59,730 nucleotides of DNA from Bacteroidota bacterium (lineage in GTDB: Bacteria; Bacteroidota; Bacteroidia; UBA7662; CANHCV01), in NCBI GenBank assembly GCA_947459245.1, contig CANHCV010000006.1, positions 1 to 59,730 of the forward strand. Reading direction: 5' to 3'. The notes below the pieces were generated by a model. The model made no database searches and was not told the DNA's origin. It was given only the letters and a program-made list of their open reading frames with translations. Below are positions 33,900 to 54,775 of this stretch, piece by piece. Position 1 is the first letter of the stretch. Each line of letters begins with the position of its first letter. A program made the position numbers and the translations under genes.

Positions 33900-36800
33900 T
33901 TACTTCAATAAGGTAATGGTTCCTTTACGAAAATGCTTTTTTTGATCCTTCCCTTTGGCATTCAAAACATAAACATATAGACCCGGTTGACATGGTTCAC
34001 CTGTATTTTTCATCTTTCCATTCCAACCATTTTGGAGATTATTTGATTGAAAAACACATTCTCCCCAGCGGTTATACACCAAAAAATCGATGGTTTTTAT
34101 GGCAACTCCATGAACAAAATGAACATCATTGGTACCATCATTATTCGGTGAAAAAGCGGATGGGACAATTATTTCTGAAGGATATACGATTGGAGCAATA
34201 TTGGAAAAAGAAGAATCATAGTTAACTTCGTTTTCAATGGCTTTGATTCGATATAAATAAGCTCCTTCAATTTCATTTCTAGGTACATTCACATCTAAAA
34301 ATGAATAGGTATTTCCAGGAACTGAACCAATGTTTCTCCAACCATTCGGATACTTCACTTCAATATCATAACGAATGATTCCACTTTTCCAAGTTGAATA
34401 AGGAGTCCAATCGATTTTCATATCATAAGCTTCATAATTAGCCATTTTCACGGCAGAAGCAACCGCTAAAATGTTTACTGAAGTATCGGAGGAATTGGAA
34501 AGATTTCCGCACTGATCTTCATATCGAACAACATACTTGTACACTTTTGAAGTTGCATCAATTTTTACATCAGAGAAAAAGGTTTGTGTTCCATGATAAA
34601 TCAAAACAGGCGTAGAGAAATTGGAATCTATTCTTTCTAAAAAATAGTTTTTCAAGACTCCGGTGGCCAATGGAGCAGGCGTCCATTGCATGGATATTTG
34701 ATCGGCTGCATCAACCGTTACATAATTGATTTCGACCGGAGCACGTATTACATTGAAGTTCGCAACAATGGAATCATAATTAGAAATGGAATAATAGCCA
34801 ACTGATGCATTGAAATAATTCTTGTGAAGAGCTTTTACATAGTAGTAATAGATGTTTGAACATAACCCAGAATCCGCATATTGATAGATGCTCGAATCAT
34901 TGTTAGGAACAACGTCACCTATTTTTTGAAATAACCCTAAATTTCCATTTTTTCGAAAAATTTCATACGATTGAATCGTATTTTGATTACCCCATCCTTG
35001 ATACGCATTAAAATGGAGGAAATTCGTGGCAAAACTGTTGGAAGTTTTGGTGGTCACTTGAAGAAAAATAGTGGAATGGGTGGAATCAAAATGAGAAGTT
35101 CTTCCACAACCATCGGTTAAACGAATTTTGTACTGCTGAGTCGCAGCAGCAGAAATAACATCCAATGAATCAATAAAGTATGAAGTATTCATAAATAGTA
35201 TGTTTGAAATCCACTGGTTATTTCTGAAGATTTCATAATGAGAAAACTCCGGAATATTTCTAGGAGTCCAATTGACTTCTACGTGATTTCGAAGAGAAAG
35301 TGGATCTACGGTAACATACGTGGGCGACATGGGCGAAGGAGGCATGGTGTCTCGAACCGTGATATAATTTGGTTTGGTAATAGAGTCTGTACAACCTAAG
35401 GAATTAGTAACTACCAAAGTGATGGAGTGTTGGGTATTGGAATTGGCACCTGGAACAGTAAAATTAATGGGTCCAGCTACATTTCCATTGGAAACCCAAC
35501 CGTTTTGTGCATGAGGTACCGCCGTTGGATCGCTCCAATACCACTTTCTTTGCACAGGGTTAGCATTGTGATACATCGAAGCATCTCTAAATACAAATTG
35601 ATTGTTTCCGTTGGACCAACATTTGATGGAATCGATCGCATAAAAGTTGGCGATGGGAGTGTCTAATACCTTTACTGCTTGCAAAATTCCAGTATCTACA
35701 CATCCCCAAGGATTGACAATGGCCAAGTTAATTCCGTAATTTCCAGGGGATGCAATTGTTCTCCGAAAAGTTCTATTTGAGAGTGGGGCCGTTTGAGAAG
35801 TCCAACCCATTCCATCATTAAAATTCCAAGAAAAAATGGTGTTAGAACTCCCTGTTCCGTAATTTCCATTGGGTGAAAATTTAGAGGTATCCAAGATGGA
35901 AAATGTTGCTGGGCTGCAAAGTGAATCAGAAAGTACAACACCCCCAACTTTCGGACGTGGGAAAACCGTAATGGTATCACGGTATGGAATAATGCAACTT
36001 TGCCCAATGGCCAACAATTGAAAAATAAAGGAAACTGCAGAATCTGTTCGTAAGGTGTATGGATAGGAATAGACATGGGTATTGGACCGACCAAGCCAAT
36101 AATCTGATGAACCATCTCCCCAACTAAATACATATCGATCAATATTTTGAGATCGATCCAGAAGTATCACTTGCAAAGAGTCACAGCCTTTTTTTGAGGT
36201 AGGAGATACCACAGTAATGGATGGAATTGGACCACCCACCTGAACATTCATCATCGTATCATCTACACAACCATACATAGAACTTACCGTTAGTTTAACC
36301 GTTTTCATCCCACCAATTCCGAAAAAACCAAGCACTGAATCCATCGGTGCCGCATTGGTTAAAATAGTAACCAATGGATTTCCTTGGTTACCAATTGGAT
36401 CGGTAAATTCCCAGCGGTAACTAACGGCATCTTGATTCAATGATCGAAACATTTGATATCCAGGGCAAGCCATGAGGGTATCCGGGCGAATAACCGCCGT
36501 AATACGACTACCTTGGACAATCAATTGGGCAGAATCAACACAACCGAATTCATTGGTTACATAGACCACCAAATAAACTGGTTGGAGATTACTAAAGTGA
36601 AAAATGGGATTACTGGAGGTATCGCTATTCATGGTTACTGGAGATCCTGCCAATAAAGGATTAATCTGAAGTCCTTTCCCCGAAGGAGTAGCACGAAAAA
36701 CTTCCCATCGAAATGATAATCTTTGCCCTAAACTCCCATTTCCTATGATTTGAGTAACATCGGTGTTTGCGCAAATTACTAAAGTATCACCTTTATTCGG

Positions 36801-39053
36801 AGCTGGTGATATGGACGCTATTTCTCCCACTTGAACCTGCGATCTCAATTCACGGGTACAATTTCCATTGGATTTCACTTGGACATATATTTGATAAATT
36901 CCTGGGCTGGAAAAATTAAAATTTACCCATGGAGAATTGGTAGTGACGATTTGACTTGTATTTGGGCCCATTAGTGTCCAAATGTATTCAAAGGGCTTGT
37001 TATAGGCCGGCCAACGATAAAGGGTATCTTCATAAATATGAAAAGTCTGCTGAACAGGCGCTCCATTGGGGCCCAAACAAATTCCTGAAGGATTAGGTAA
37101 AACGGTACCATTCATGATTCTACCCCAGTTAATACGAAAATTTTTTACAAAAAAGGTTTTTTCAATCGTATCCGAACACTTTGAAAATTTTGAGTCCAAT
37201 CCTACAATTTGACGAACAATGTTCGGACCTATCCAAAAGCAATGAATGGGCCTCATTTTTTCCCAAGTCGTATCTTTAATGGATAAACATGGATCATTGC
37301 TTGCAGGCCAAATTGGACTAAACAACTTTACATTGTAGTAAAAATAAGGAGTTTCAGGATTGGGAATAATGGAATAATAAGGATATCCAACAAAGGAATT
37401 GTAGGCCTGAAATGCTAATGGAAAAGCTGATGGAAGTGGTAAATACATCGAATCACAGGAAAGAGTATCAAGGGTTTGATGAGCAAACCAAGGAAAAGGA
37501 GCAAATTCAGCTTTCGGTTTTCGTGTTTCGATTCGAATTTTTATGGAAGTAGCTTCACAACCATCGGAAGAAATAATTTTTAACTGATAAAACCTGCGTT
37601 CAGACAACCATCGAATGGTATCAGAAAAAGTACTTTTTGGTGTCCCCTCGACACTATCGATCAAATTAAATAATGAATCATACCGAAACCACCGATGAGT
37701 ATAAGTAAAACCATTTGGCTTCCAAGAAGTACTATCACTTAATAAAAAGGAAAATGGTGTATCACAATCAATTGGCAATAATGGCTGAATGATTTTTATT
37801 TTAGCCAATGGCCCTTTCGTAATAACTATATTTTTTAAGGTATCAGAAACCCCACATGCACCTGTCCAGCGAAGAATGACCGAATTTATTCCAGAATCTA
37901 AAGAAGAAATTTTCGTATAAGAAAATAGATCAATGTTATTTCCTCCTGCTTTTCTTCCTTTATACAAGGGTGAATAATTAGCCTTTACAGCACCTGAATT
38001 TCTTGTTAACCCATAAAAATCCCAAATAAAGGAACCTCCAGGTGAGTTAGAAGGAATGACCGTTTGATTATTTAATTCAAAAGATTGGTCTAAGCAAACT
38101 TGAATTGGCGTTTTTCCTCCATTAACCGTAAAATTTAATACGGGTGACGCATCAACTGTAAAATCAAACGGATTAGAAATGTTGGATGAACAACCTAAGG
38201 AAACAACAACCAAGGATACTTGATAATTTCCAGGTTGATGAATCGTTGGCAATTGGAATGTACTTAACTGAGAATTAGTCGTTGTAAAATTCTGACTGCT
38301 TGGGGGTGTAACACTTAAATTTGTTAAGGTCCAAACAATGGCCTGTGCACTGCGTCCGGCAGGAAACTGAATCTGAGGAGTAAAACTATAATTGGCAGGT
38401 AAACAAGATTCCGGTCCTCCTGAAGAAGAAAAAGAACCTTGAATTGGTGGAATCAATTTGATTGGGAAAAGAATAGAGGTATCCCGAACACAATTATCTC
38501 GATTAAAAACAATGGCCTTGATCCTAAAGGTATCCGAAACCGTAAAATTATAATTTAAGGCAAAATTTGAACCAGAAAAAGATTGGGTACCTGAAATTTT
38601 TACACCAGAATTTGAATAGACTTCCCAAACTACCGAAGAAACCCAATTGGTGTCCAATAACTGAAATGTTTTTGAAACCGAAGAAGAACAAACTAAGGAA
38701 GCTGTCGGCTGATCTTCAAAAAACATCGGATTGGGCTTGTCTCGAATAGAAATCGAAGTTCGATATAGAACAAAAACCCCAGGAGAAGTTTCAATTTTAC
38801 AAACAATATTCTTGACACCTGGAGTAGAATAAATGCCCTGAGCTCGAATTGAATTATTACAAACAAATCCAAGACCATCCCCCAAATCCCAACAAATGGA
38901 TGCTGGATTATTCGGAGGATTGCTTAATTGAAATGAATGTGTAGAGGAAGGAAGGCAAGCATTAATTACTTGGGATGAAATTTGAGAAAACATTTTAAGT
39001 GATCCAATCAAAATTAAATTGATCACTAAGAAAATTTTTAAAATCGTTTTCAT
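33900..39053 (-). CDS. Giant T9SS surface protein with gliding-motility-type C-terminal domain (paralogue 1)
   Basis: A 1717-residue secreted protein from the ATG at 39053, where the signal peptide begins (MKTILKIFLVINLILIGSLK ... FSQ). The N-terminal domain has SICWDLGDGLGFVCNN; PKD-like modules follow (YVFSWGDGSSDYW, TIFSWNFNDGMGW), then three fibronectin-III-like modules (VNWTPRNIPEFSHYEIFRN, ISMQWTPAPLATGVLKNY, IDWTPYSTWKSGIIRYD). The last ~90 residues, from VPSAFSPNNDGTND to GTITLLK, are the gliding motility-associated (CHU_C, type B) T9SS sorting domain. A surface adhesin or filament is likely. It aligns along its whole length with the protein encoded at 39193-44370. AT-rich compared with its paralogue. 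Confidence 0.88.
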   Translation of the reverse strand: MKTILKIFLVINLILIGSLKMFSQISSQVINACLPSSTHSFQLSNPPNNPASICWDLGDGLGFVCNNSIRAQGIYSTPGVKNIVCKIETSPGVFVLYRTSISIRDKPNPMFFEDQPTASLVCSSSVSKTFQLLDTNWVSSVVWEVYSNSGVKISGTQSFSGSNFALNYNFTVSDTFRIKAIVFNRDNCVRDTSILFPIKLIPPIQGSFSSSGGPESCLPANYSFTPQIQFPAGRSAQAIVWTLTNLSVTPPSSQNFTTTNSQLSTFQLPTIHQPGNYQVSLVVVSLGCSSNISNPFDFTVDASPVLNFTVNGGKTPIQVCLDQSFELNNQTVIPSNSPGGSFIWDFYGLTRNSGAVKANYSPLYKGRKAGGNNIDLFSYTKISSLDSGINSVILRWTGACGVSDTLKNIVITKGPLAKIKIIQPLLPIDCDTPFSFLLSDSTSWKPNGFTYTHRWFRYDSLFNLIDSVEGTPKSTFSDTIRWLSERRFYQLKIISSDGCEATSIKIRIETRKPKAEFAPFPWFAHQTLDTLSCDSMYLPLPSAFPLAFQAYNSFVGYPYYSIIPNPETPYFYYNVKLFSPIWPASNDPCLSIKDTTWEKMRPIHCFWIGPNIVRQIVGLDSKFSKCSDTIEKTFFVKNFRINWGRIMNGTVLPNPSGICLGPNGAPVQQTFHIYEDTLYRWPAYNKPFEYIWTLMGPNTSQIVTTNSPWVNFNFSSPGIYQIYVQVKSNGNCTRELRSQVQVGEIASISPAPNKGDTLVICANTDVTQIIGNGSLGQRLSFRWEVFRATPSGKGLQINPLLAGSPVTMNSDTSSNPIFHFSNLQPVYLVVYVTNEFGCVDSAQLIVQGSRITAVIRPDTLMACPGYQMFRSLNQDAVSYRWEFTDPIGNQGNPLVTILTNAAPMDSVLGFFGIGGMKTVKLTVSSMYGCVDDTMMNVQVGGPIPSITVVSPTSKKGCDSLQVILLDRSQNIDRYVFSWGDGSSDYWLGRSNTHVYSYPYTLRTDSAVSFIFQLLAIGQSCIIPYRDTITVFPRPKVGGVVLSDSLCSPATFSILDTSKFSPNGNYGTGSSNTIFSWNFNDGMGWTSQTAPLSNRTFRRTIASPGNYGINLAIVNPWGCVDTGILQAVKVLDTPIANFYAIDSIKCWSNGNNQFVFRDASMYHNANPVQRKWYWSDPTAVPHAQNGWVSNGNVAGPINFTVPGANSNTQHSITLVVTNSLGCTDSITKPNYITVRDTMPPSPMSPTYVTVDPLSLRNHVEVNWTPRNIPEFSHYEIFRNNQWISNILFMNTSYFIDSLDVISAAATQQYKIRLTDGCGRTSHFDSTHSTIFLQVTTKTSNSFATNFLHFNAYQGWGNQNTIQSYEIFRKNGNLGLFQKIGDVVPNNDSSIYQYADSGLCSNIYYYYVKALHKNYFNASVGYYSISNYDSIVANFNVIRAPVEINYVTVDAADQISMQWTPAPLATGVLKNYFLERIDSNFSTPVLIYHGTQTFFSDVKIDATSKVYKYVVRYEDQCGNLSNSSDTSVNILAVASAVKMANYEAYDMKIDWTPYSTWKSGIIRYDIEVKYPNGWRNIGSVPGNTYSFLDVNVPRNEIEGAYLYRIKAIENEVNYDSSFSNIAPIVYPSEIIVPSAFSPNNDGTNDVHFVHGVAIKTIDFLVYNRWGECVFQSNNLQNGWNGKMKNTGEPCQPGLYVYVLNAKGKDQKKHFRKGTITLLK

Positions 39054-39144
39054 AACTTTTTTTAACAAAAACGAATGATGGACTTAACAAATTGTTAATC
39101 CTAAATAATTTATTTTTTATTAATATGTAAAAGCTATGAAACAA

Positions 39145-39192: not shown

Positions 39193-42100
39193 TTACTTCA
39201 AAAGGGTGATGATGCCTTTTTGGTTGTAACGTTTGAAATCTTGTCCTTTGGCAATCAAGATGTAAGAGAAAATTCCTGATTGGCAAGGATCGCCGGTGTT
39301 CTGCAAACGGCCATTCCATCCTTCAGTAATGTCGGTGGATTGGAATACGCATTTGCCCCAACGATCGTAAACGCGGAAATCATATGCTTTCAATCCGGCT
39401 CCATTCACGAACAAGGTATCGTTCAACAAATCTCCATTGGGTGTAAACGCCGTAGGAATAAGGATTTTAGAAGGATAGTTGATACACGTTTCGTTCGAGA
39501 AAGAAGAATCGGGTGTTGCATCGTTTTCGATGGCTTTCACGCGGTAGCAATATGCTCCATCAATTTCATTGCGAGGAGCGTTAACATCGGTGAAGGTCAA
39601 GGAATTTCCAGGAACGGAACCGATGGTTCTCCAACCGTTAGGATACTTCACTTCCACATCGTAACGGATCACTCCATTTTTCCATGTAGCGTAAGGTGTC
39701 CAGTCGATCTTCATGTCGTAGGCATCGTAATTCGGAATTTTTACCGTAGATGAGGTGGCAAGAATATTCACAGAAGTATCGGAAGGATTGGAAAGATTTC
39801 CGCACTGATCTTCGTAGCGAACAACGTACTTGTAAACCTTGGTAGATGCATCTACCGTAACATCAGAGTAGGAAGTTGCTGTTCCACGGTAAATGACTAC
39901 AGGGGTAGGATTGGATGGATCAATACGCTGAAGGATGTAATTCTTTAGGACTCCTGTTGCTAGAGGTGCAGTCGTCCAAGTCATCGAAATTTTATTATTG
40001 GCTTCAACGGTTACGTAGTTGATTTCAAGTGGCGTAACAACCACGCTGAAATTGGCTACAATAGAATCGTAATTAGAGATCGAGAAATAACCGAAACGTG
40101 GATCTGCATAATTCTTATGCAACGCCTTTACATAGTAGTAGAACGTATCAGAGCAAAGGCCAGAATCTACATACAAATAATTGGTATTTCCAACCACAGG
40201 AGCCACACGACCAACTGGAGCATAAGCACCGGTTGTACCTTTTTTACGGAATACTTCGTAATAATCCAAAGCAGTTTGAGCACCCCAAGCTTCATAAGCA
40301 TTGAAGGTAATGTTATTGGTTGCGTATCCACCGGTTGCCACTCCATTAACGCTAACTTTAATAGTACTGTGGGTGGTATCAAACGATGAAGGTTGATTAC
40401 AAACGTCGTTGATGCGCATTTTGTAATTTACGCTGCTACCAGCATTCACAACATCAAACACATCGGTGTAGGTGGTGGTAGTTGAATTGGTGATGGTTGC
40501 AATGGAGGTATTGTTTCTAAAGATTTCGTAATTCAAGAATTCGGGAGCAGTTCTAGATCTCCAATTGATTTCTACGTGATCGCGAAGAGAAAGTGGATCT
40601 ACTGTGATGTAGGTTGGCGTAATTGAAGCCAAAGGAACCGTATCGCGAACGGTAATGTAATTGGGTTTTGAAATAGAATCGGTACAACCGAAGGCGTTGG
40701 TAACCACCAAAGAAATGGTGTGAGTGGTGTTGGTATTAGCTCCAGGAACAGTAAAGTTTACAGCTCCAGTTGATGGACCAGTAGTATTGTATCCATTTAG
40801 TCCGTTCGGAACAGCAGTTGGATCGCTCCAATACCATTTCCAACCCCTTGCAGAAGAATTTGGATAAGTAGATGCATCGTTGAAAATGAATCCATTCGAA
40901 CCGTTTGCCCAACATTTAACTGAATCAACAGCATAGAAATTGGCAACTGGGGTGTCTAATACACGAACACGAGCTAAACGGTTGGTATCCACACATCCCC
41001 ATGGATTGGTAATGGCAACCAAAACATTGTAAATACCGGGTGTTGCAATGGTTTTTGTACGATTGCGAGAAGGTACAGGAGCGGTTTGAGTATTCCAACC
41101 GGTACCGTCTCCAAAGTTCCATGAATAAATGGTATTGTTTGTTCCAGCGCCGTAGTTTCCGTTGGGAGCGAAACGAGAAGTATCATTCAACGTAAAGGAA
41201 GCGGGGCTACACAAAGAATCTGCAACAGCAAATCCACTTACAATTGGACGAGGGTAAACCGTAATGGTATCGGTGTACGGTACCACACAGTTTTGACCGA
41301 TGGCCAAAAGGTTGATGGTGTAGATGACCAAAGAATCGTTTTTAACGGAATAGGGATACTTATAAACGTGGGAATTGGTTTGTCCGAGCGTGTAGTTAGA
41401 AGAACCATCGCCCCAACCAAACACAAATCGATCAATATTTACAGATCGATCTTGAATAACCACATTCAAAGAATCGCAACCGCGTTTGGAGGACGGTGTT
41501 GTAACTGTTAGAGATGGAATGGGTCCACCTACATTTAGATTGATGGTGGTATCATCGATACATCCGTACTGAGAGGTAACCGTTAATTTCACAGTTTTGA
41601 TACCACCAATACCGAAAAATCCTAATGAAGAATCCAAGGGATAAGCATTATTCAAAGTAGTAACCAAGGGATTACCCAAATTACCGATTGGATCGGTAAA
41701 CTCCCAATCGTAGCTCACCGCATCAGAGTTGTAGGATAAGAAAGATTTGTATCCAGGGCAGGCCATGGAGGTATCGGGTCTTAACACAGCAGTAATGGAA
41801 CTGCCTCGAACGACGATTTCAGCCGTGCTGGTACATCCACGATCGTTGGTTACCGTAACAACAAGGTAATAGGCATTATTATTCTTGATGCGGAAGGTGG
41901 GATTAAAGTCGGTTAGGTTGCTTACAAAAACAGGGGAAGTTGGCAAAGCAGTATTTACCACAGCTCCTTTACCTGCTGCTGTTGCATTAAATACAGCCCA
42001 ACGGTAAGTAAACGAAGCTCCTTGGCTACCATTAGCCGAGATGGAAGTAATATCCGTATTTGTACAAACTACCAATGAATCTCCAGAATTTGGAGATGCT

Positions 42101-44370
42101 TGAATAGAAGCAATCGTTCCAACCTCGAAAGACATGGATTTAATCTTGATGCATTCTCCTTTTGATTTTACGGTAACGGAAATGTTGTAAGTTCCATTTG
42201 CTGAAAAATTAAAGGTATTCGAAGGTGTTGTTGTTGTAATGGGAGAAGATTGACTTCCGGAAGGGTCTGTAATGGTCCAAATGTATTCGTAAGGAGCATT
42301 ATAAGCTGGCCAACGTTGAGCTACATCTTCATATACATAAAAGGTTTGGTTAAAGGCTGCACCACCAGCACCCAAACAGCCTCCGGTTGGATTTGGAACT
42401 ACGTTTCCACCTACCAATCTACCCCAATCAATAAAGTAATTCTTTACGAAGATGGTTTTTTCAACGGTATCGGTACAACGGTTCAAAAGCGGACTAATAC
42501 CCATGGTTTGGCGAATAACGAAAGCGCCACTTGAATCGGTTAAAACAATGGGTTGAATGTTGGTCCAGTTCGATGGGCCAGAAGTTCTTAGGATGTTCGA
42601 AGGATTACCTGGGCGATACACTTCAATTTTATATTGGAAAAGTGGATTGCCTGGATCAGGAATCAAGTGAGTTAAATTAGCAACTGGAGGAGCAACTACC
42701 GCAGGCGGAGATTTTAAATCCAACAATTGGTCGCAAGTAAGGGTATCTCCAAGTGTTTGAGAAATCCAAGGAGAATTAGCGAAAAGTGCATCTGGAACAG
42801 CTCTTTGAACCGAAATTCGGGTAGAAACATCTTCACAACCATCAGATGACACCAATCGAAGTTGGTAAAATCTTTTTTCACCCAGCAAATTAATGGTATC
42901 CGTAAAAATATTAATTGGTGTTCCAACAGTACTGTCAATGATAGTAATATTATCTGCAGCATAACGAATCCAACGATTGGTGTAGGTATTTCCCGCAGGT
43001 CTCCATGATGTTGAATCAATCATTTGGAAAATAAAAGGAGAATCGCAACTTACAGGAGGATTAGGATTTCTCAGTAAAAATCTGGCAATCGGGCCTTTTG
43101 TGCGAATAATATTATTGAGGGTATCAGCTGTTGGGCAAGCTCCATTCCATTTAAGAATGACAGAATTCAGTCCAGAATCCGTTGCAACAATGGTAGAATA
43201 CTTGTACTTGGCCAAACCTGTTGTGGGAGAACCACCGGGCGCTACCACAGCTTTATAGGTTGGACGAATTGCCCCAGTGTTTTTAACCAAGCCATAGAAA
43301 TCCCAGCTGAAGGTTCCTCCAGGCAAATTGGATGACGTATTGGTGCTGTTTTGCAAATCAAAAACCTGGTTCATACAAACTTGCACTTGTGAACGTCCGC
43401 CATTGATTGTAAAATTCAAATTTGGTGCGTTATCAACTTTAAATGATCCAAAAGGAGCAGCGATGGTTGAAGAACAACCACGAGCAATCACCAACAATGA
43501 AATTTGGTACTCGCCAGGAGTAGTAAAGGTTGGTAATGCCAAAGGTGCGGAAGGAGGACTTGTTCTTACGAACACTTGTGGTGGGGGCGGTGTTGCGCCC
43601 ATGGTAGTAAGCGTCCAAACGGCAGAATCAACCACCACTCCGCTAGGGATGGACAAATTGGGTGTAAATGTATAGTTTGCTGGTAAGCAAGAATTAAAAC
43701 CTAAAGAAGATGAAAAATTACCTTGAATTGGACGAATAATGGTAATAGGGAAAAGAATGCTAGTGTCCTTTACGCATTGGGTATTATCAAAAACAACAGC
43801 CTTTACGCGAAAAGTATCGGAAGATGTAAAAGTAAAGCCCATGGAAAAAGGTGGAGACGTAGAAACAGTAGAGGTTTGGGCGAAAATTTTATTCCCGCTG
43901 CGGTTATAAACCTCCCAAACAACGCTATTTACATTGCTGGTATCAACCAACGAAAAGACCTTTCGAATGGGCGTTCCGCACGATGAAAAAATGTTGTTAT
44001 CTACTGTAAAAGCTGGATTTGGAAATGCATTAACCGTAATGGAGGAGTTGAAGGTGGTGAATACACCGGGAGCAGTTTCAACCCTACAAACAATGTTCTT
44101 TGGCCCTGCGGAACTATAAATCCCTTGAGCAATAGGTAAATTATTACAAACAAATCCATTCCCATCACCCATGTCCCAACAAATAGAAATAGAATTTGCA
44201 GGTGGATTGTTAAGGGTAAAGGAGTAGGCTGCCGTTGGCAAACAACCAACCAAGACAGTGCTGCTAATTTGTGCTTTCAAAGCACTAATTCCGGCTAAAC
44301 CAACTAGAAACGTTAATGTTAAGAATAATCTACGCATGTGTGTTTTCATGTCCATCTTTTCTGTTTTCAT
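39193..44370 (-). CDS. Giant T9SS surface protein with gliding-motility-type C-terminal domain (paralogue 2)
   Basis: A 1725-residue secreted protein, full-length paralogue of 33900-39053: matching N-terminal SICWDMGDGNGFVCNN, PKD-like FVFGWGDGSSNYT and YSWNFGDGTGW, fibronectin-like segments, and the same C-terminal sorting domain (IPTAFTPNGDLLNDTLF ... GIITLLK). The start is uncertain: ATG codons at 44370, 44349 and 44337 precede the signal peptide (RRLFLTLTFLVGLAGISALK, then AQ). The first ATG is only 5 bases after the hldD stop, so it is read through from hldD. GC-richer at third positions than its paralogue, suggesting different selection or expression. Confidence 0.88.
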   Translation of the reverse strand: MKTEKMDMKTHMRRLFLTLTFLVGLAGISALKAQISSTVLVGCLPTAAYSFTLNNPPANSISICWDMGDGNGFVCNNLPIAQGIYSSAGPKNIVCRVETAPGVFTTFNSSITVNAFPNPAFTVDNNIFSSCGTPIRKVFSLVDTSNVNSVVWEVYNRSGNKIFAQTSTVSTSPPFSMGFTFTSSDTFRVKAVVFDNTQCVKDTSILFPITIIRPIQGNFSSSLGFNSCLPANYTFTPNLSIPSGVVVDSAVWTLTTMGATPPPPQVFVRTSPPSAPLALPTFTTPGEYQISLLVIARGCSSTIAAPFGSFKVDNAPNLNFTINGGRSQVQVCMNQVFDLQNSTNTSSNLPGGTFSWDFYGLVKNTGAIRPTYKAVVAPGGSPTTGLAKYKYSTIVATDSGLNSVILKWNGACPTADTLNNIIRTKGPIARFLLRNPNPPVSCDSPFIFQMIDSTSWRPAGNTYTNRWIRYAADNITIIDSTVGTPINIFTDTINLLGEKRFYQLRLVSSDGCEDVSTRISVQRAVPDALFANSPWISQTLGDTLTCDQLLDLKSPPAVVAPPVANLTHLIPDPGNPLFQYKIEVYRPGNPSNILRTSGPSNWTNIQPIVLTDSSGAFVIRQTMGISPLLNRCTDTVEKTIFVKNYFIDWGRLVGGNVVPNPTGGCLGAGGAAFNQTFYVYEDVAQRWPAYNAPYEYIWTITDPSGSQSSPITTTTPSNTFNFSANGTYNISVTVKSKGECIKIKSMSFEVGTIASIQASPNSGDSLVVCTNTDITSISANGSQGASFTYRWAVFNATAAGKGAVVNTALPTSPVFVSNLTDFNPTFRIKNNNAYYLVVTVTNDRGCTSTAEIVVRGSSITAVLRPDTSMACPGYKSFLSYNSDAVSYDWEFTDPIGNLGNPLVTTLNNAYPLDSSLGFFGIGGIKTVKLTVTSQYGCIDDTTINLNVGGPIPSLTVTTPSSKRGCDSLNVVIQDRSVNIDRFVFGWGDGSSNYTLGQTNSHVYKYPYSVKNDSLVIYTINLLAIGQNCVVPYTDTITVYPRPIVSGFAVADSLCSPASFTLNDTSRFAPNGNYGAGTNNTIYSWNFGDGTGWNTQTAPVPSRNRTKTIATPGIYNVLVAITNPWGCVDTNRLARVRVLDTPVANFYAVDSVKCWANGSNGFIFNDASTYPNSSARGWKWYWSDPTAVPNGLNGYNTTGPSTGAVNFTVPGANTNTTHTISLVVTNAFGCTDSISKPNYITVRDTVPLASITPTYITVDPLSLRDHVEINWRSRTAPEFLNYEIFRNNTSIATITNSTTTTYTDVFDVVNAGSSVNYKMRINDVCNQPSSFDTTHSTIKVSVNGVATGGYATNNITFNAYEAWGAQTALDYYEVFRKKGTTGAYAPVGRVAPVVGNTNYLYVDSGLCSDTFYYYVKALHKNYADPRFGYFSISNYDSIVANFSVVVTPLEINYVTVEANNKISMTWTTAPLATGVLKNYILQRIDPSNPTPVVIYRGTATSYSDVTVDASTKVYKYVVRYEDQCGNLSNPSDTSVNILATSSTVKIPNYDAYDMKIDWTPYATWKNGVIRYDVEVKYPNGWRTIGSVPGNSLTFTDVNAPRNEIDGAYCYRVKAIENDATPDSSFSNETCINYPSKILIPTAFTPNGDLLNDTLFVNGAGLKAYDFRVYDRWGKCVFQSTDITEGWNGRLQNTGDPCQSGIFSYILIAKGQDFKRYNQKGIITLLK

Positions 44371-46765: not shown

Positions 46766-49700
46766 TTATCTCTGAATCATGAGTTTCTCAAGATGGCGAA
46801 CCACTTGCTGATTTAAATCGGTAGCAACCACTTCCAGATGGTACAATCCTTCAGCCAAATTCTGATAGTTCAACGTTTGAACATCAACTGGAGATAACAT
46901 TTCGCGCTTAACCAAACGGCCATCGCTGGAATACAAACTCACTTGAACATTCGACACCGTGGTTCCTAACTGCAACTGGAATTCTCCACGGTTAGGATTC
47001 GGATAAATTGCAACGTTGAATCCAGCAGAAGAAATGGAACGGCAAGCAACAGTGCTGATAGCCAAGACTCCAGGCTGCGACCATCCGCAATTTGAAGTGA
47101 GATATTGCGCTCCCAACGAACCTGAAATGAACGAACCTGCATTTCTAATGACCGCACTGTTCGCGTTCTGACTCACCAAAACCAACCCGGCGGGCAAATT
47201 GAAGCGGTAACGCGTTGCAGTGGATACCGCTGGTATCGAAAATGTAGCAGTATCTCCCGGACAAAGAACACTTGGGCCGCTAAGTACCGTCTTGGGCAAT
47301 AAATTGATGCTGATCGATCTTGAATTCGTATTCCCACAAGGAGAAAGTCCTACCACGGTAATTCTTCCGCTGGTAAATGCTGATGCAAACATGACCTGAA
47401 TACTGGTGGTTCCCTGACCCGAAACTAACGTTGCATTTCGAGGAACGGTCCACAAATATCCATTGCATCCATCGGCCTGAAAAACGGTATAAGTTGCCAA
47501 ATTTGCAGTACCTCGAAGGTCACAAACTGCAATATCTGCTTGAGCAACCATTGGTGCATCTGTTGGCTTACCGGTTCTTGGGTAAATCGCCCTAGGCTGC
47601 CCACTTCCGCAAGCATTGATTGGCGTAACACGAATTTGGCCGGTGGTATAATTGGCTGGATACAACACCTGAATAACATGGCTATCCGTTCTTCCAACAG
47701 CTACAATACCGTCGGTTAACATCCACGAATAGGAGGAAGCCTCGGAATCCCGATCAACAGAATAGGTGGCTAAATTATTGGTTCCGCGGATACCACAAGG
47801 ATTCATGAATCCAATGATGGTATCAGGGCGTACAGGAACGGTTAAACGCTGAATCACCACTTGGGAATCGCTTCGAGAAATGCAACCATTGAAATCGGTC
47901 ACTTCCACCCAAACGGAATTGCTTTGACGGACTTGAATGCTGGAACTTCGGGCACCCGTGCTCCACAAGAAAGAACGACCTGCTGAAGCCACTAAAGTAA
48001 CAGAACCATTTCCACAGAATTCAAGTGGGCCATTTGCGGTAATCACCGCTTTTTGTATTTCATTCACCACCAAATTCAAAACAACCGTGGTGGTACATCC
48101 TGATTGATTTACGCTGATAAACGAATACTGACCAGAATTCGAATAATTCTGCCCTCCAAACGAATAAACTTGTCCACGACAAATGGAATCAACAATGGTA
48201 ATCACTGGGTTGGCGTTTACATTCAAAGTAAGAATGATCACCGAATCACAACCTTGGCTGTTGGTTAAAATGGATTGATAAACCCCTGGCTGAGTAAGAT
48301 TTTGGCCATTGAAAGCATAACTGCTACCGTTGCAAATAGCGGTACTGATGCGCTGGGTATCGGGTTGGGCAAATTGAAGATCTAAAACCACGAAAGAATC
48401 GCAACCAAAAGAACCAAGCAAGGTATCGACATAGAACCCTGATTGGGTTAATGTTTCTCCTCCAAAAATGTAGGTTGAGTTTCCACAAACCTTCGCAGAA
48501 ATGGAATCCACAGAAATCGGATTAACGTTCAAACTCAAGGTAACAACCGAGTCGCAACCATATGAAGAACGCAAACTATCTACGTAAACACCAGGTTGCG
48601 AAATCAACCTTCCACCAAAAACATACGGCTGATTGGAACACGTATTGGCTTGGATGGACGTAGCTTGAGGAGTTCCTACCCGAACCACAATGCTGTCGGT
48701 ACAAAACGTATAACCGTTCGTAACCGTGCAGTAATAAGTAGTCGTTTGAGTTGGGGCAACCGTGATGGAAGAAGTGGTATCTCCCGTAGTCCACAAATAC
48801 GATTTTTTATCGGTTGTACCGGTAACCAATGCGGTTAACTGGGCCGTTGAGGTGCCCCAATTGGAGGCAAAAATGGCAATGGAGTTGTATCCTTGAATTA
48901 AATTCTGGGCAATCGGATACGTTTGTTTTGCTCCCATGCTGCTGTTTCCGTACCCAACAAAACGACCGTTGACAAACGCATAATATTCGTTTTCTGCCGA
49001 AACCTCCAATTGGAAATCGGTATTCGGTTGGCCATTCACCTCAAATACTTTGCGGAAATACGCATCGTAAACTCCAGTTCCATCGGGATGCCAAATGGGT
49101 TGAGCTCCGGAAATGTTGGAAGTCCCTTGAATTCTTGCAGATGGCCAGAAGGAATTGGTATCGTTAAATCCAACGTATTCCCATCCTTCCGGATTCAAAA
49201 CACTCACTTTCCAAGAAGCATCCGTGGGTACAAAAATGCTATCAGGGGTGGTATTTCCTAAATTTTGTCCTTGAACGCTCAAAGTAATGGATGATCCGAT
49301 GCAAATGCTGGTATCTCTTCCCAAATCCAAGGTCAATAAATCAACATAAGAAGAATCGGTAGCAGTACATCCGTTCTGATTTACAACAACCGAGTACCAA
49401 CCGCCATTCACGGGCAAGATGGTTTGGGTGGTCGCTTTATTGCTCCACAAATAGGTGGCTCCAGGATTTCCGGCATCCAAACGCCCGGGATTTCCGCATT
49501 GGAAAAGGGTGTCGGGAAGGGCAACCACGGGAGGATTGGGCTTAACGGTAATGGTAACACTATCAACACATGAAGTGACGCCGTTGCTCACGGTACAATA
49601 GTACGTGGTGGTTTGAGTTGGAGTAACACCAATGTAAGGCGTAGTTGCTCCGTTGCTCCACAAGTAAGTGAACTGATTTTGAGAATTTTGAAGCTGGTAG

Positions 49701-52516
49701 AGCGCTGAAATTTCATTGGAATCCAAGGCGCGATTGTACATGAACACTTCGTCCATGCTACCATAGAATGGATACCAGAAAGGAGACTGATTCCCATATC
49801 CGTAAGTACCGAAATACAAATTGTTGCGGTTCGCAGCCAAGAACGTTGATGGCATGGAAGCGAACTTCACTTTCACTCCATTGATGTAGGTTTCGGCGTA
49901 ATCTTTGGTGTTCACAATCACCACATGTTTCCAAGTGGAATCCACCTGCATGGGGTGACTGAATTGAGCTTGGAATTTCGAACGCACCCCGCAGCAACCG
50001 TCAACCTGCAAATAATTTAGGCTGTAACCGCCGTTGGCGTTGTAGTTGATGTCGGCAAAAAATCCGGGAGGTGTTCCAATTCCGTCGCCTTCTTTGGCGA
50101 ACAAAGCGGCTGTTCCGTTGGTGGGAGAATAGGCCCCTACCCCGTTCATGGCATTTCCTGGAATTTCTTTGTACCACAGCGACATGGTGTACACCGAATC
50201 GATGTGCATAGAAGGATGGTTGGGAACGAAAACGTGGTCGTTCTTGCCGAATCCGCGGAAGAAATACGCTCCGTTAGGATTTCCAAAACGGTCGGTAGTG
50301 GGCGTTACACCCCGGGGTTTTCCGTGGTTTCCGTTGCCCGAAAAATCGTAAGCATTTCCATCGAAGGAGTAAGCGGCCATCAATCCGTTTTTCAAATTCG
50401 GATTTCCTTTCACGAAAGGATTGATGAGGTACGTTTCTCCCGCACAAATGGCGGTATCGTTACCGAGCTCCACGGAAAGAAGATCTACGTACGTGGTGTC
50501 GGTAAAGGTGCAGCCACCCGATTGAACGGAAACGCTGTAGGTGCCTATTTGAGTCACTTGAATGGAAGAAGATGTAGCTCCGGTGCTCCACAAAGTTGTA
50601 CCGGGGTAATTACCTGAGGAAAGGGTTACGGAACCGCAGCCCGAAGTAGTATCGGCAAATAAGTTGGCCGAAGCCGTTCCATTCACGGTTACTACGATGC
50701 TATCCGTGCAAGTGGTAATGCCGTTGCTGATGCTGCAATAATAGGTGGTGGTTCGAGTGGGGGCTACGTTGATCGATGGGGTGGTATCACCGGTGGACCA
50801 GAGGTAGGTAATAATGTTTGAATTATTTGTAGTTGGCACATCTAGTGAATAGGTAGCATTGTGTATTTGACCATGGTTATTATTCCCACTTTTATCAATT
50901 GCAATTGTTCCGTTACCTTCATTGAAATCCCATAGACCTAAAGTAAATAAATCATTTTTCCAATGATTTGTTGGCTGAAAATTACTACTGTAACGACATG
51001 TATTTGATACCCTGATGTCGTCATAATAAACAGTCATTCGATGAGACGAAATATCACCGCCGCGCCACCAGAAGTGAGTATTAGTCATGAGTGGATACAT
51101 GGTATTGATTGAAACTGTGTCCCCAGAAATCCAAGACTCTTTAAGTTGACCGTTTAAAAATAATCGGTATGTTCCCCGAGAAAACGATAATGCAAAATGA
51201 TTCCAATTGGAAGTAGGATAATTGTACCCATTTGAAGTTGAAGACCCTCCTACATTTGAATTACCATATGCCCAGACCTGAGGTGACCATGATGACATTA
51301 TTACATTTCCACCTGCATTCTCAGGATTACCTAGTGATAATATTCCCTCTTCTTGGGATGAAATAATTTTAGCCCAACATTCTAAAGTCCAATTTGGATA
51401 ATTGGTATTCAAAGTTGAAGATACTGGGAAAACGACATAGTCATCATTTTGAGGATCTGAAAAGTAACCACCTCCCACATGATATAAGGAATAATTTATT
51501 CCATTCGCTATATTCATATTCGCTTTAATACTTAAATTTCCTCCCGCACAAATAGCGGTATCGTTTCCGAGATTCACAGAGAGGAGGTCCACGTAAACGC
51601 TGTCGGTGGCAGTGCAATTGTTTTGAGAAACGGTAACACTGTACCAACCGGAAGTGGTAGCCGAAAGGGTTTGATTGGTTGAGCCATTATTCCAAACATA
51701 AGAGGCACCGGCATTACCAGCGTTCAAGGTTACCGAATTACCGCAAGCCGATAAAGTATCGGTATTGGAAAGATTCACGGTTAGGTTACAACCCGATTGC
51801 CCGGAGTACAATTGCTGCACTTCGGCAGCAGAAAGCGCACGGTTATAGATGGCGATGTCGTCGAGGAGGCCGTTGAAAAATCCCAAAAATCCGTAATTTG
51901 CAGCACCTAATCTCCGATTTCCATTCCATGATAACACCGGTGGTTGATTATTGGTCATACTGTCCAAATTTCCATCAACAAATAACTTAAATTCGCCATT
52001 TTTTAATGTAATAATAATTGAATGCCACCTGCCATCTGCAATCCTATTTGAAGACCTGCTCCACATACCTTGAGTGGCATACCCTATTTGACCAGAACCG
52101 TTTTGGTAACCGTCATTAATTCCAATTGTAATACCCCCACTATTTGAAACAAGCTGATTCCCAAAAGAAAAAATAGTATTACTTACACTGGTAATTACTA
52201 AGGATTTTAACCAAAAAGATACAGAAAAATTTCCAGTAACATTTAGACTCGTATTTTGTCCCGAAGAGTATTCAATCCAATCATTTACCCCATCAAACGA
52301 ATACGCTTTTCCTGCATTTCCAAACCGGTCCGCAGCTAGCGTAGCGCCGTTCACGGTACCGTTATTGCCGTTTCCACTTTCGTCGTTGGCGTTACCATTG
52401 AACGGCCACCAACCCACCAATCCTTGGGTAGGCACGTAAGATGGAATGGCAGATTGCGCCTGCATCGTTCCCCATCCAACAAATAATAACAAGAATAGTA
52501 GAATTCCTTTTTTCAT
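46766..52516 (-). CDS. Giant LamG/Ig-like T9SS surface protein with nested domain insertions
   Basis: A 1916-residue secreted protein. The ATG at 52516 starts the signal peptide (MKKGILLFLLLFVGWGTMQA); an in-frame ATG at 52555 lies upstream of the -7 box. Domains (residues counted from 52555): LamG ~38-255; Ig-like units; LamG ~345-577; LamG ~718-958; a galactose-binding-like beta domain ~1100-1240 (WKVSVLNPEGWEYVGF, EYYAFVNGRFVGYG); four ~50-residue Cys-paired repeats (YVFGGRLISQPGVYVDSL, YIFGGETLTQSGFYVDTL, YAFNGQNLTQPGVY, YSFGGQNYSNSGQY); Ig-like modules; and a C-terminal type A T9SS sorting domain (VAIYPNPNRGEFQLQL ... LMIQR). Likely a glycan-binding adhesin. Three Ig-like units are interrupted by whole inserted domains. 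Confidence 0.88.
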   Translation of the reverse strand: MKKGILLFLLLFVGWGTMQAQSAIPSYVPTQGLVGWWPFNGNANDESGNGNNGTVNGATLAADRFGNAGKAYSFDGVNDWIEYSSGQNTSLNVTGNFSVSFWLKSLVITSVSNTIFSFGNQLVSNSGGITIGINDGYQNGSGQIGYATQGMWSRSSNRIADGRWHSIIITLKNGEFKLFVDGNLDSMTNNQPPVLSWNGNRRLGAANYGFLGFFNGLLDDIAIYNRALSAAEVQQLYSGQSGCNLTVNLSNTDTLSACGNSVTLNAGNAGASYVWNNGSTNQTLSATTSGWYSVTVSQNNCTATDSVYVDLLSVNLGNDTAICAGGNLSIKANMNIANGINYSLYHVGGGYFSDPQNDDYVVFPVSSTLNTNYPNWTLECWAKIISSQEEGILSLGNPENAGGNVIMSSWSPQVWAYGNSNVGGSSTSNGYNYPTSNWNHFALSFSRGTYRLFLNGQLKESWISGDTVSINTMYPLMTNTHFWWRGGDISSHRMTVYYDDIRVSNTCRYSSNFQPTNHWKNDLFTLGLWDFNEGNGTIAIDKSGNNNHGQIHNATYSLDVPTTNNSNIITYLWSTGDTTPSINVAPTRTTTYYCSISNGITTCTDSIVVTVNGTASANLFADTTSGCGSVTLSSGNYPGTTLWSTGATSSSIQVTQIGTYSVSVQSGGCTFTDTTYVDLLSVELGNDTAICAGETYLINPFVKGNPNLKNGLMAAYSFDGNAYDFSGNGNHGKPRGVTPTTDRFGNPNGAYFFRGFGKNDHVFVPNHPSMHIDSVYTMSLWYKEIPGNAMNGVGAYSPTNGTAALFAKEGDGIGTPPGFFADINYNANGGYSLNYLQVDGCCGVRSKFQAQFSHPMQVDSTWKHVVIVNTKDYAETYINGVKVKFASMPSTFLAANRNNLYFGTYGYGNQSPFWYPFYGSMDEVFMYNRALDSNEISALYQLQNSQNQFTYLWSNGATTPYIGVTPTQTTTYYCTVSNGVTSCVDSVTITVKPNPPVVALPDTLFQCGNPGRLDAGNPGATYLWSNKATTQTILPVNGGWYSVVVNQNGCTATDSSYVDLLTLDLGRDTSICIGSSITLSVQGQNLGNTTPDSIFVPTDASWKVSVLNPEGWEYVGFNDTNSFWPSARIQGTSNISGAQPIWHPDGTGVYDAYFRKVFEVNGQPNTDFQLEVSAENEYYAFVNGRFVGYGNSSMGAKQTYPIAQNLIQGYNSIAIFASNWGTSTAQLTALVTGTTDKKSYLWTTGDTTSSITVAPTQTTTYYCTVTNGYTFCTDSIVVRVGTPQATSIQANTCSNQPYVFGGRLISQPGVYVDSLRSSYGCDSVVTLSLNVNPISVDSISAKVCGNSTYIFGGETLTQSGFYVDTLLGSFGCDSFVVLDLQFAQPDTQRISTAICNGSSYAFNGQNLTQPGVYQSILTNSQGCDSVIILTLNVNANPVITIVDSICRGQVYSFGGQNYSNSGQYSFISVNQSGCTTTVVLNLVVNEIQKAVITANGPLEFCGNGSVTLVASAGRSFLWSTGARSSSIQVRQSNSVWVEVTDFNGCISRSDSQVVIQRLTVPVRPDTIIGFMNPCGIRGTNNLATYSVDRDSEASSYSWMLTDGIVAVGRTDSHVIQVLYPANYTTGQIRVTPINACGSGQPRAIYPRTGKPTDAPMVAQADIAVCDLRGTANLATYTVFQADGCNGYLWTVPRNATLVSGQGTTSIQVMFASAFTSGRITVVGLSPCGNTNSRSISINLLPKTVLSGPSVLCPGDTATFSIPAVSTATRYRFNLPAGLVLVSQNANSAVIRNAGSFISGSLGAQYLTSNCGWSQPGVLAISTVACRSISSAGFNVAIYPNPNRGEFQLQLGTTVSNVQVSLYSSDGRLVKREMLSPVDVQTLNYQNLAEGLYHLEVVATDLNQQVVRHLEKLMIQR

Positions 52517-52585: not shown

Positions 52586-54775
52586 TTAATCTTGAAGTAC
52601 CGTGAATTTTATCACCGATGTTTTTACTTTTTGTCCATTTCTCTTTACCCAAAATTCGGCGAAAAAAGTACCATAAGGCCATCCTTCTACCGAAAATTCT
52701 CCCTGTTGAACCACACCAAAATCTTTTTGAAATAATGAATTCCCAGAAATGCCATAAACCCTGATTTCGGTGGGCAACATCCGAGCAAAGGAAAAATACA
52801 CCTTGTTGGAAGCCGGATTAGGGTACAGCTTAACGCTCTCATTTTCCACTTTGGAAAGGTCTTTCCCATTTAGAACCAAAATACTTTTAGGGTCGGAAGG
52901 AATGGAACCCAAACTGTCGCAACCGTACACGCTGCGAACCACGTAAGTGTATTGGCAAGTATCTCTCGACAAGCTCCGATCCACCCAACCTAACTGCTGT
53001 ATCCAACTCAACTGGGCACTATCGGTTAATCCAGCAGGTTTCCAAAGCGTAACAAGCGGCGACATTCCAGCTCCACAGCTATCTCGGTAAATTTGAAGCC
53101 CATGAAAACGATTTACCCTCCGAAAGACCGATTGTTGTAAACTAGTATCAAAGGCCTCTTGGCTGGAAATATCTACCAAATTGCTCAAAGTCATTTGAAT
53201 TTGAGATGGCAAAAAAGTTAAATTATCAATGGTAGGTTTGGGAATGGAAACCTCCTTCAAAACCAAATTCAATGAAAACGTATTTTTCCCATTGAAAGGA
53301 CACTGATTGTCGTTTGCTACGAAATTCAAAGGGTAATATTGTGGAAAAACTTGCCCTAAAAAACTGGAGTCTTTCTGAATGGATTGAGCACAACTGGTTT
53401 TCCATTTAATTTGAAAAGCAACATTATTCCGAGCTTTTACCCCGTATCCTACCTCCATTCCATTCAAGCTAATTTTTGGAATGACACTGGTTGAATTGGG
53501 AAGAATGCTTCGAATGCTGGCACAAGGTGGAGCAAAACACCCTGAATCTACCCGAAAAGTATCTAACCCAGTTTGATAGGTTCCCAAAAAAGAATTGGAA
53601 GTAAATCTCACGGTAACCGAGTCGGTGGCTGGTGCAAAATCCGAGGCTCGAACCTCCAATTGAATCTCATCCCCAAAAAATCGAACCATGTTTTCACCCG
53701 AAATCAAACCATTACCACTTAACAAATTTTTCCCGAAAATTCTTGGTGCAGATTGACCCGATACATATCCCAATCCGGGAGAATTGGTAATGATCACCGT
53801 TTGAAAATCCCTAAAATTTTCAGCTACTTTTTGTCCATTTTTATACGTGGATACTTTAATACAAATCAGAAAATTTCCTTGCGTGTTGGGCAGCATTCGA
53901 ATGATCCCCGAAAGCGAATCAATGGGTTGATTGGCGCCCCCATACGCCGGCACCATGTTCGGCATCGGGTTATTGATGGAATATCCCCGATTGTACGAAC
54001 AAGGAGTATTTATTGCAGAAAATGGATTATCGATGGAATAAACCATTTTATCCAAATCACGATCAACGGCACCCAAAAGAAGTAAAGTTGTATCGGCCGT
54101 TCCTGAAGTTTGTACCATGTTAGAATTGGGGAATTCCAAAAATTCGGGGGAATCATCCCCCAAACGTTGAACAGGAATTCCAACGGTTGGCCCATTGGAA
54201 GTGGATTGAAAATAGGGCAACATTCTAGCACGCAAAATCATATCACCTGTACAACCTGTGTTATCGTTTGCATTGCGGCAACAAGGAATGGCTCCTGCCG
54301 ATGATTGAAAGAACCACCCCGAACCAGGAGGAACCCCGGTTAACCAAACGGTATCTGACCAAAACTGAACTGCAGCAATGGCACCTCTGCTTGCAACACC
54401 TCCGCCACCACTTAATGGATTTCCGGCTCCGCAGCGAACGATACTGGTCGTTCCATTACAAATTGGGGTAATTTCATAGCCGGTTCCCAAACGACCTGGG
54501 GCGGGGCTCAAGGAAATGGAATTCACCACTGAACCAAATTTATCCACTGGATTTCCTTGCACCATCATGCTCGGATTAAGTCCATTCATGGGAATACCAC
54601 TGCAATCGCGGTAAAGGGTCATGATGAAAATAAACCCATACCCATCTCGTTGAAAGTTTGGAGCATTGTTATCCCGAACAGCTTTCCAGGTAATTTCACC
54701 ACCGAAAACGTGGCTGGCCATTGTTTTTGAAATAGCGAAAACAATACAAATGATTCCAATGATTACTTTTTTCAT
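52586..54775 (-). CDS. T9SS-secreted surface protein with 'SHVFGGEI' N-terminus
   Basis: A 729-residue secreted protein with signal peptide (MKKVIIGIICIVFAISKTMA) followed directly by SHVFGGEITWKA and YGFIFIMTLYRDCSG, a beginning shared by many large Bacteroidota surface proteins. The middle has ASRGAIAAVQFWSDTVWL, RLGDDSPEFLEFPN and QGNFLICIKVSTYKNGQ; the last ~85 residues (VKLYPNPASNKVYFSF ... VIKFTVLQD) are a type A T9SS sorting domain. Several Cys pairs suggest disulfides. Specific role unknown. It lies 69 bases upstream of the LamG gene's start, same strand. Confidence 0.82.
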   Translation of the reverse strand: MKKVIIGIICIVFAISKTMASHVFGGEITWKAVRDNNAPNFQRDGYGFIFIMTLYRDCSGIPMNGLNPSMMVQGNPVDKFGSVVNSISLSPAPGRLGTGYEITPICNGTTSIVRCGAGNPLSGGGGVASRGAIAAVQFWSDTVWLTGVPPGSGWFFQSSAGAIPCCRNANDNTGCTGDMILRARMLPYFQSTSNGPTVGIPVQRLGDDSPEFLEFPNSNMVQTSGTADTTLLLLGAVDRDLDKMVYSIDNPFSAINTPCSYNRGYSINNPMPNMVPAYGGANQPIDSLSGIIRMLPNTQGNFLICIKVSTYKNGQKVAENFRDFQTVIITNSPGLGYVSGQSAPRIFGKNLLSGNGLISGENMVRFFGDEIQLEVRASDFAPATDSVTVRFTSNSFLGTYQTGLDTFRVDSGCFAPPCASIRSILPNSTSVIPKISLNGMEVGYGVKARNNVAFQIKWKTSCAQSIQKDSSFLGQVFPQYYPLNFVANDNQCPFNGKNTFSLNLVLKEVSIPKPTIDNLTFLPSQIQMTLSNLVDISSQEAFDTSLQQSVFRRVNRFHGLQIYRDSCGAGMSPLVTLWKPAGLTDSAQLSWIQQLGWVDRSLSRDTCQYTYVVRSVYGCDSLGSIPSDPKSILVLNGKDLSKVENESVKLYPNPASNKVYFSFARMLPTEIRVYGISGNSLFQKDFGVVQQGEFSVEGWPYGTFFAEFWVKRNGQKVKTSVIKFTVLQD

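Follow-up and report, generated by a model that had tools for sequence, protein, structure and literature searches.

What holds the complete domains that interrupt the Ig-like modules of a large bacterial surface protein: is each module a single fold opened at one loop to carry a guest, or do the domains merely follow one another along the chain? The question is raised by a gene on the minus strand (46766–52516) of a 59,730-nucleotide stretch of Bacteroidota DNA, called the window here. The gene encodes a multidomain protein of ~1916 amino acids (Met start at 52516, in a frame open from 52573); all its features given below lie on the same strand. At the N-terminus is a hydrophobic segment read by eye as a signal peptide (MKKGILLFLLLFVGWGTMQAQS; 52454–52516), which is common to the orthologues and has 86–94% DNA identity to those of two congeners, G001 and G002. 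A free-standing LamG domain (LamG1, 51800–52453; Laminin_G_3, PF13385) precedes three pairs of Ig-like modules, each made up of an intact module (IgA) followed by a split one (IgB). The remainder consists of a stalk of Cys-containing repeats (47894–48649, recognized by sequence and by matches in relatives) and PKD_6 modules (47024–47893), and of a T9SS type A C-terminal sorting domain (46817–47008; PF18962, TIGR04183).

The intact modules IgA1, IgA2 and IgA3 occupy 51578–51799, 50483–50674 and 49334–49525, respectively. IgB1 begins with an N-half (51518–51577; profile positions 1–21) comprising strands A and B with the motif DTAICAG, is interrupted by insert 1 (50816–51517), and resumes with a C-half (50675–50815; profile positions 20–65) that reads YLWSTGDTT...TTTYYC. 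The halves of IgB2, placed with the intact-module profile, lie at 50420–50482 and 49526–49675 on either side of insert 2 (49676–50419), and those of IgB3 at 49253–49333 and 48650–48799 on either side of insert 3 (48800–49252). The limits of insert 1 coincide with the limits of homology to a paralogue (L044, below), and the insert boundaries proposed originally never depart from those given here by more than a few tens of bases.

Between DTxICxG and YLWSxG..TTTYYC the window gene has 251, 263 and 171 residues, all in one reading frame, while a regular-expression survey of ~310 intact copies in relatives gave a spacing of 15–24 residues. A profile was then built from 314 intact modules only, with no site of interruption preset, and run on all reading frames of the loci, where it found ~1055 uninterrupted copies of the module, along with 24 pairs of segments that were candidates for split modules. 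All pairs with a strong second half break at profile positions 17–24 of 67, which is the B-C loop; the remaining candidates are weak and probably due to chance. Taken alone, the N-halves score just 4–13 bits, yet they are always well placed and end where the C-half starts. The original prediction of whole domains nested at the same loop of three Ig-like modules is thus borne out by the single frame and the single break site. Gaps of 80–106 residues in the regular-expression survey were rejected as inserts, being missed modules, and the weak pairs at L107, L031, L021 and L025, together with 12 loci of a wider list, were discarded as chance matches or skipped modules.

Alternatively, the domains could be arranged as beads on a string, the N-half acting as a linker or cap, the C-half and the next module forming a domain of their own, and the LamG domains standing in series. 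The low scores of single N-halves are in line with such an arrangement. In each case, however, the two halves tile the intact-module profile end to end, without gap or overlap, and beads on a string would require a module that lacks exactly the strands found on the far side of the insert. Cys residues are near-invariant at profile positions 10 and 54 (97% and 96% of 766 intact modules), position 10 belonging to the N-half and position 54 to the C-half. Since the insert sits between the members of this pair, a disulfide bridging it is likely, judging from the sequence. In relatives, domains as different as a beta-propeller and a C-type lectin are found between the same two half sequences. In an AlphaFold model of IgA2-IgB2{LamG}-IgA3, IgB has two strands ahead of the insert and four behind it, arranged in the same order as those of the intact neighbour. 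A second model (20 aligned rows) reached a pTM of 0.66, with pLDDT values of 76–88 for the C-half and 64–81 for the N-half; the lower values of the N-half again lean towards a separate linker. Structure prediction therefore agrees with a common fold in strand order, although the models are of only moderate confidence (mean pLDDT 67–68). Profile tiling, the divided Cys pair and strand order together favour one split fold, the flanks behaving as one domain and not two, and support the packing of both halves into a single predicted Ig sandwich; we regard the serial arrangement as unlikely.

Inserts 1 and 2 both belong to the LamG family (PF13385, 39–43 and 48 bits, respectively; cut-off 27.6), but the LamG types of the two modules align badly with each other. 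A sequence search of solved structures returned no useful match. The model of insert 2 showed Foldseek likeness to AbnA domain 4 and to CBM40 folds. Foldseek matches to clostridial neurotoxin binding domains were taken to reflect the common LamG jelly roll only. Insert 3 resembles the galactose-binding-like family BetaGal_ABD2 at 23.0 bits, exactly the cut-off of 23, and at 18.9 bits within a search of the whole protein. A permuted form of LamG, in which the strand that comes first in LamG1 (WDFNEG...SGNNNHG) stands at the C-terminus, occurs in insert 1, in module 2 of L041 and at residues 1150–1440 of an L066 open reading frame.

Insert 1 had been described as compositionally foreign, with limits matching those of the domain. 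It is indeed AT-rich (GC 0.36, GC3 0.27, against 0.51 and 0.64 in the C-terminal flank), and the best GC change-point (50809/50810) falls exactly at its C-terminal edge. The other limit is not matched: low GC continues through the N-half and LamG1 to ~52303. The AT-richness is common to LamG1 and to nearby surface-protein genes (GC3 0.29–0.38), so it is weak evidence for a separate origin of the insert. Inserts 2 and 3 are not distinct in composition. A search for a foreign donor gave best relatives at 24–35% identity among 295 genomes and cyanophage virion proteins at ~26%, and no donor can be named from these. Two adjacent minus-strand genes in the window (33900–39068 and 39193–44370; GC3 0.29–0.36) encode PKD proteins of 1.7 thousand residues each with CHU_C type IX signal domains.

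Comparison with the congeners gave a different account of how insert 1 arrived. Both carry the same gene at the corresponding locus, which has FabD and an MFS gene on its two sides. From residue 695 to the end, DNA identity is 87% with G001 and 76% with G002; inserts 2 and 3 are present in both species and are therefore older than the split of the genus. Residues 40–694 of the window protein, by contrast, have the arrangement LamG1-IgA1-IgB1{LamG}-IgA2, while the congeners share a different region, 90% identical between them. By DNA comparison, the block at 50492–52457 stands for a different block of 1.76 kb in the syntenic orthologues, and with G002 as the outgroup it is the ~2-kb block of the window species that appears as the newcomer. 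Insert 1 was thus not dropped alone into a module that the gene already had, as the original prediction implied; rather, LamG1, IgA1, the first split module and IgA2 were exchanged as a block, and the insert came together with its module. Between the window gene and the MFS gene lies a gene for a secreted protein of 729 amino acids (52586–54775, minus strand), which has no counterpart at the syntenic locus of G001. Its likeness to the N-terminal region found in the congeners instead of the exchanged block is weak (23%).

The paralogue in the same genome (L044, G000:C8) has a C-type lectin where the window protein has insert 1. DNA identity to the window block is 72–78% on both sides, running to residue 350 and resuming at residue 590, while the Lectin_C domain aligns with the LamG of insert 1 no better than shuffled sequence does. 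With homologous flanks and a different insert, this pair is direct evidence that one genome fills the same socket with different domains.

Insert 2 is the most constrained part of the shared protein, and purifying selection acts on it very strongly: when the window species is compared with G001, this insert has 2 amino-acid differences against 55 base differences (dN/dS 0.008), as opposed to a dN/dS of 0.05–0.13 in the rest of the shared protein.

We collected 45 curated inserts at the B-C loop from ~23 Bacteroidia genomes (17 that fall under about nine family labels, plus six MAGs that include several from Flavobacteriales or Chitinophagaceae). LamG accounts for 24 of the 45 and Lectin_C for three; the others include FISUMP, fibrinogen-like, BetaGal_ABD2, glycine-rich, arabinofuranosidase-like (an ArabFuran-catal match at its cut-off) and DUF4961 domains, Sortilin/BNR beta-propellers and domains without a family match. 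The intact module is the norm, and in relatives, too, split modules are found alternating with intact ones. The idea of an Ig-like array as a platform into which domains are plugged therefore holds across many proteins and genomes as well as for the Lectin_C paralogue. Because at least eight unrelated domain types occupy one loop, the module has the look of a socket that can be used repeatedly to display binding domains.

Both LamG and Ig-like segments are abundant in the genome (19 LamG matches), and the window locus itself has undergone block exchange, so one could suppose that common segments were fused at random or by repeat recombination, with no favoured socket. The breakpoints, however, are found at one loop only. 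Within the genus the inserts have also been conserved, with purifying selection acting on them, and it is mostly the PTxTTTY subtype that is split (25 of 32 split modules, against 198 of 1180 intact ones). The bait used to find relatives was a C-half or a LamG junction, so this enrichment may be inflated and the counts above are no prevalences. We consider chance fusion very improbable.

What the sockets are for is a separate matter. Some loop inserts are not known binding domains (propellers, DUF4961, glycine-rich domains and those without a family match), some are enzyme-like (the ArabFuran-catal match, the BNR propeller and a glycosylhydrolase family), and binding is not proven for LamG and FISUMP. 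The split modules might accordingly hold enzymes or sensors, making the protein an extracellular catalyst or a signalling receptor. The window protein, however, has no match to a catalytic family, its inserts being LamG and a beta-galactosidase accessory domain, and for this protein we think a catalytic or sensory role quite unlikely. We favour, with reasonable though not full confidence, a T9SS-exported rod whose IgB sockets project domains of carbohydrate-binding type for multivalent attachment to glycans. Ig-like and PKD-like modules would build up the rod-shaped body of the protein. At each IgB the chain would form two strands, exit the sandwich through the B-C loop, fold into a complete beta-rich domain whose ends lie close together, and return to complete the Ig fold. 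This would hold the binding domain out to the side of the rod and leave its outer face exposed, with the intact IgA modules acting as spacers between sockets. Besides the end-on LamG1, the array would show two LamG domains and one galactose-binding-like domain, most likely attaching the cell to glycans on particles, algae or other cells. In the course of evolution, sockets would receive new domains, and groups of modules would be exchanged as units. The split layout, the use of one loop, the diversity of inserts, their fold assignments, conservation and purifying selection, and the sorting tail are seen directly in the sequences; glycan binding, surface anchoring and adhesion are what we infer.

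Export by the T9SS is plausible on sequence grounds. The sorting tail scores 33.3 bits with PF18962 (cut-off 27) and 26.9 bits with TIGR04183 (cut-off 23), and the same genome encodes SprA (567 bits) and 76 sorting-tail matches. No Pfam or NCBIfam match to an RTX nonapeptide beta-roll or a type I secretion signal was found in the window protein.

Among RTX adhesins, split Ig-like domains that display another domain are already known. FrhA of Vibrio cholerae projects its ligand-binding domain from one (PMC10865825), and for AhLap of Aeromonas hydrophila split domains served as the criterion for finding ligand-binding domains (PMC12077191). The window protein shares with these adhesins (FrhA SBD-UKD, AhLap, MpIBP) a long tandem array of Ig-like domains in which a complete domain emerges from a discontinuous one, and a sideways projection with adjacent insert ends, which is here predicted. 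The place of exit differs: FrhA has one 12-residue strand before the insert and 106 residues after it (PMC10865825), and in AhLap the chain also leaves after the first strand (PMC12077191), whereas the window protein has two strands (~20 residues) before and ~45 residues after. RTX adhesins are type I secreted with one to few split domains; the window protein has a T9SS tail and serial splits alternating with intact modules. The T9SS tail, the lack of an RTX roll and the exit after two strands mean that it resembles RTX adhesins but is not one of them. In RrgA-type pilus adhesins a vWA domain is inserted in an Ig-like stalk domain, but these belong to Gram-positive sortase pili, have a single insertion and use another fold. 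With multidomain T9SS surface proteins the window protein has in common the signal peptide, tandem Ig-like/PKD modules, Por secretion tail and LamG; such proteins are usually described with their domains in series, whereas here domains are nested in one loop. No description of nested sockets in Bacteroidota was found in a full-text literature collection that covers only a minority of subscription papers. Relative to the RTX adhesins, the differences are the secretion route, the loop, the serial array and the variety of inserts.

Split-domain display, so far described from type I RTX adhesins, is thereby extended to another phylum and another secretion system, which makes it look as if the same solution was reached independently. 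In many environmental Bacteroidota, giant T9SS proteins have binding parts that go unannotated because they interrupt repeat modules instead of following them. If the one loop is a general socket, reading from ICxG to YLWSxG would give a simple rule for finding recognition domains, unknown folds included, and, should the rule be true, for comparing the attachment targets of related species. Nature also provides, in these socket modules, scaffolds able to accommodate inserts of very different kinds.

A broader reading takes the module as a Bacteroidia-wide socket and its B-C loop as a site of exchange, the scaffold being kept while the insert is swapped or rapidly replaced; we advance it tentatively, as somewhat short of an even chance. 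If true, the socket would amount to a natural and general means of display by which surface recognition is diversified. In another genus, the loci L205 (G256:C2) and L206 (G038:C5) carry orthologous LamG inserts whose cores look as if exchanged or diversified: identity is 82–93% over the first 60 insert residues and 84–91% in the Ig halves, against 19–25% in the LamG core. Divergence of this type is absent from insert 2 of the window species, and no donor for the variable cores of L206 was found in either congener. Two further proteins deserve mention. At L203 (G070:C1), one protein has the same loop filled with Gly_rich_2, ALK_LTK_GRD and an arabinofuranosidase-like domain. In a 3063-residue Flavobacteriales protein at L066, a domain that looks by eye like discoidin (residues 1800–1973) occupies the corresponding loop of another Ig-like subtype.
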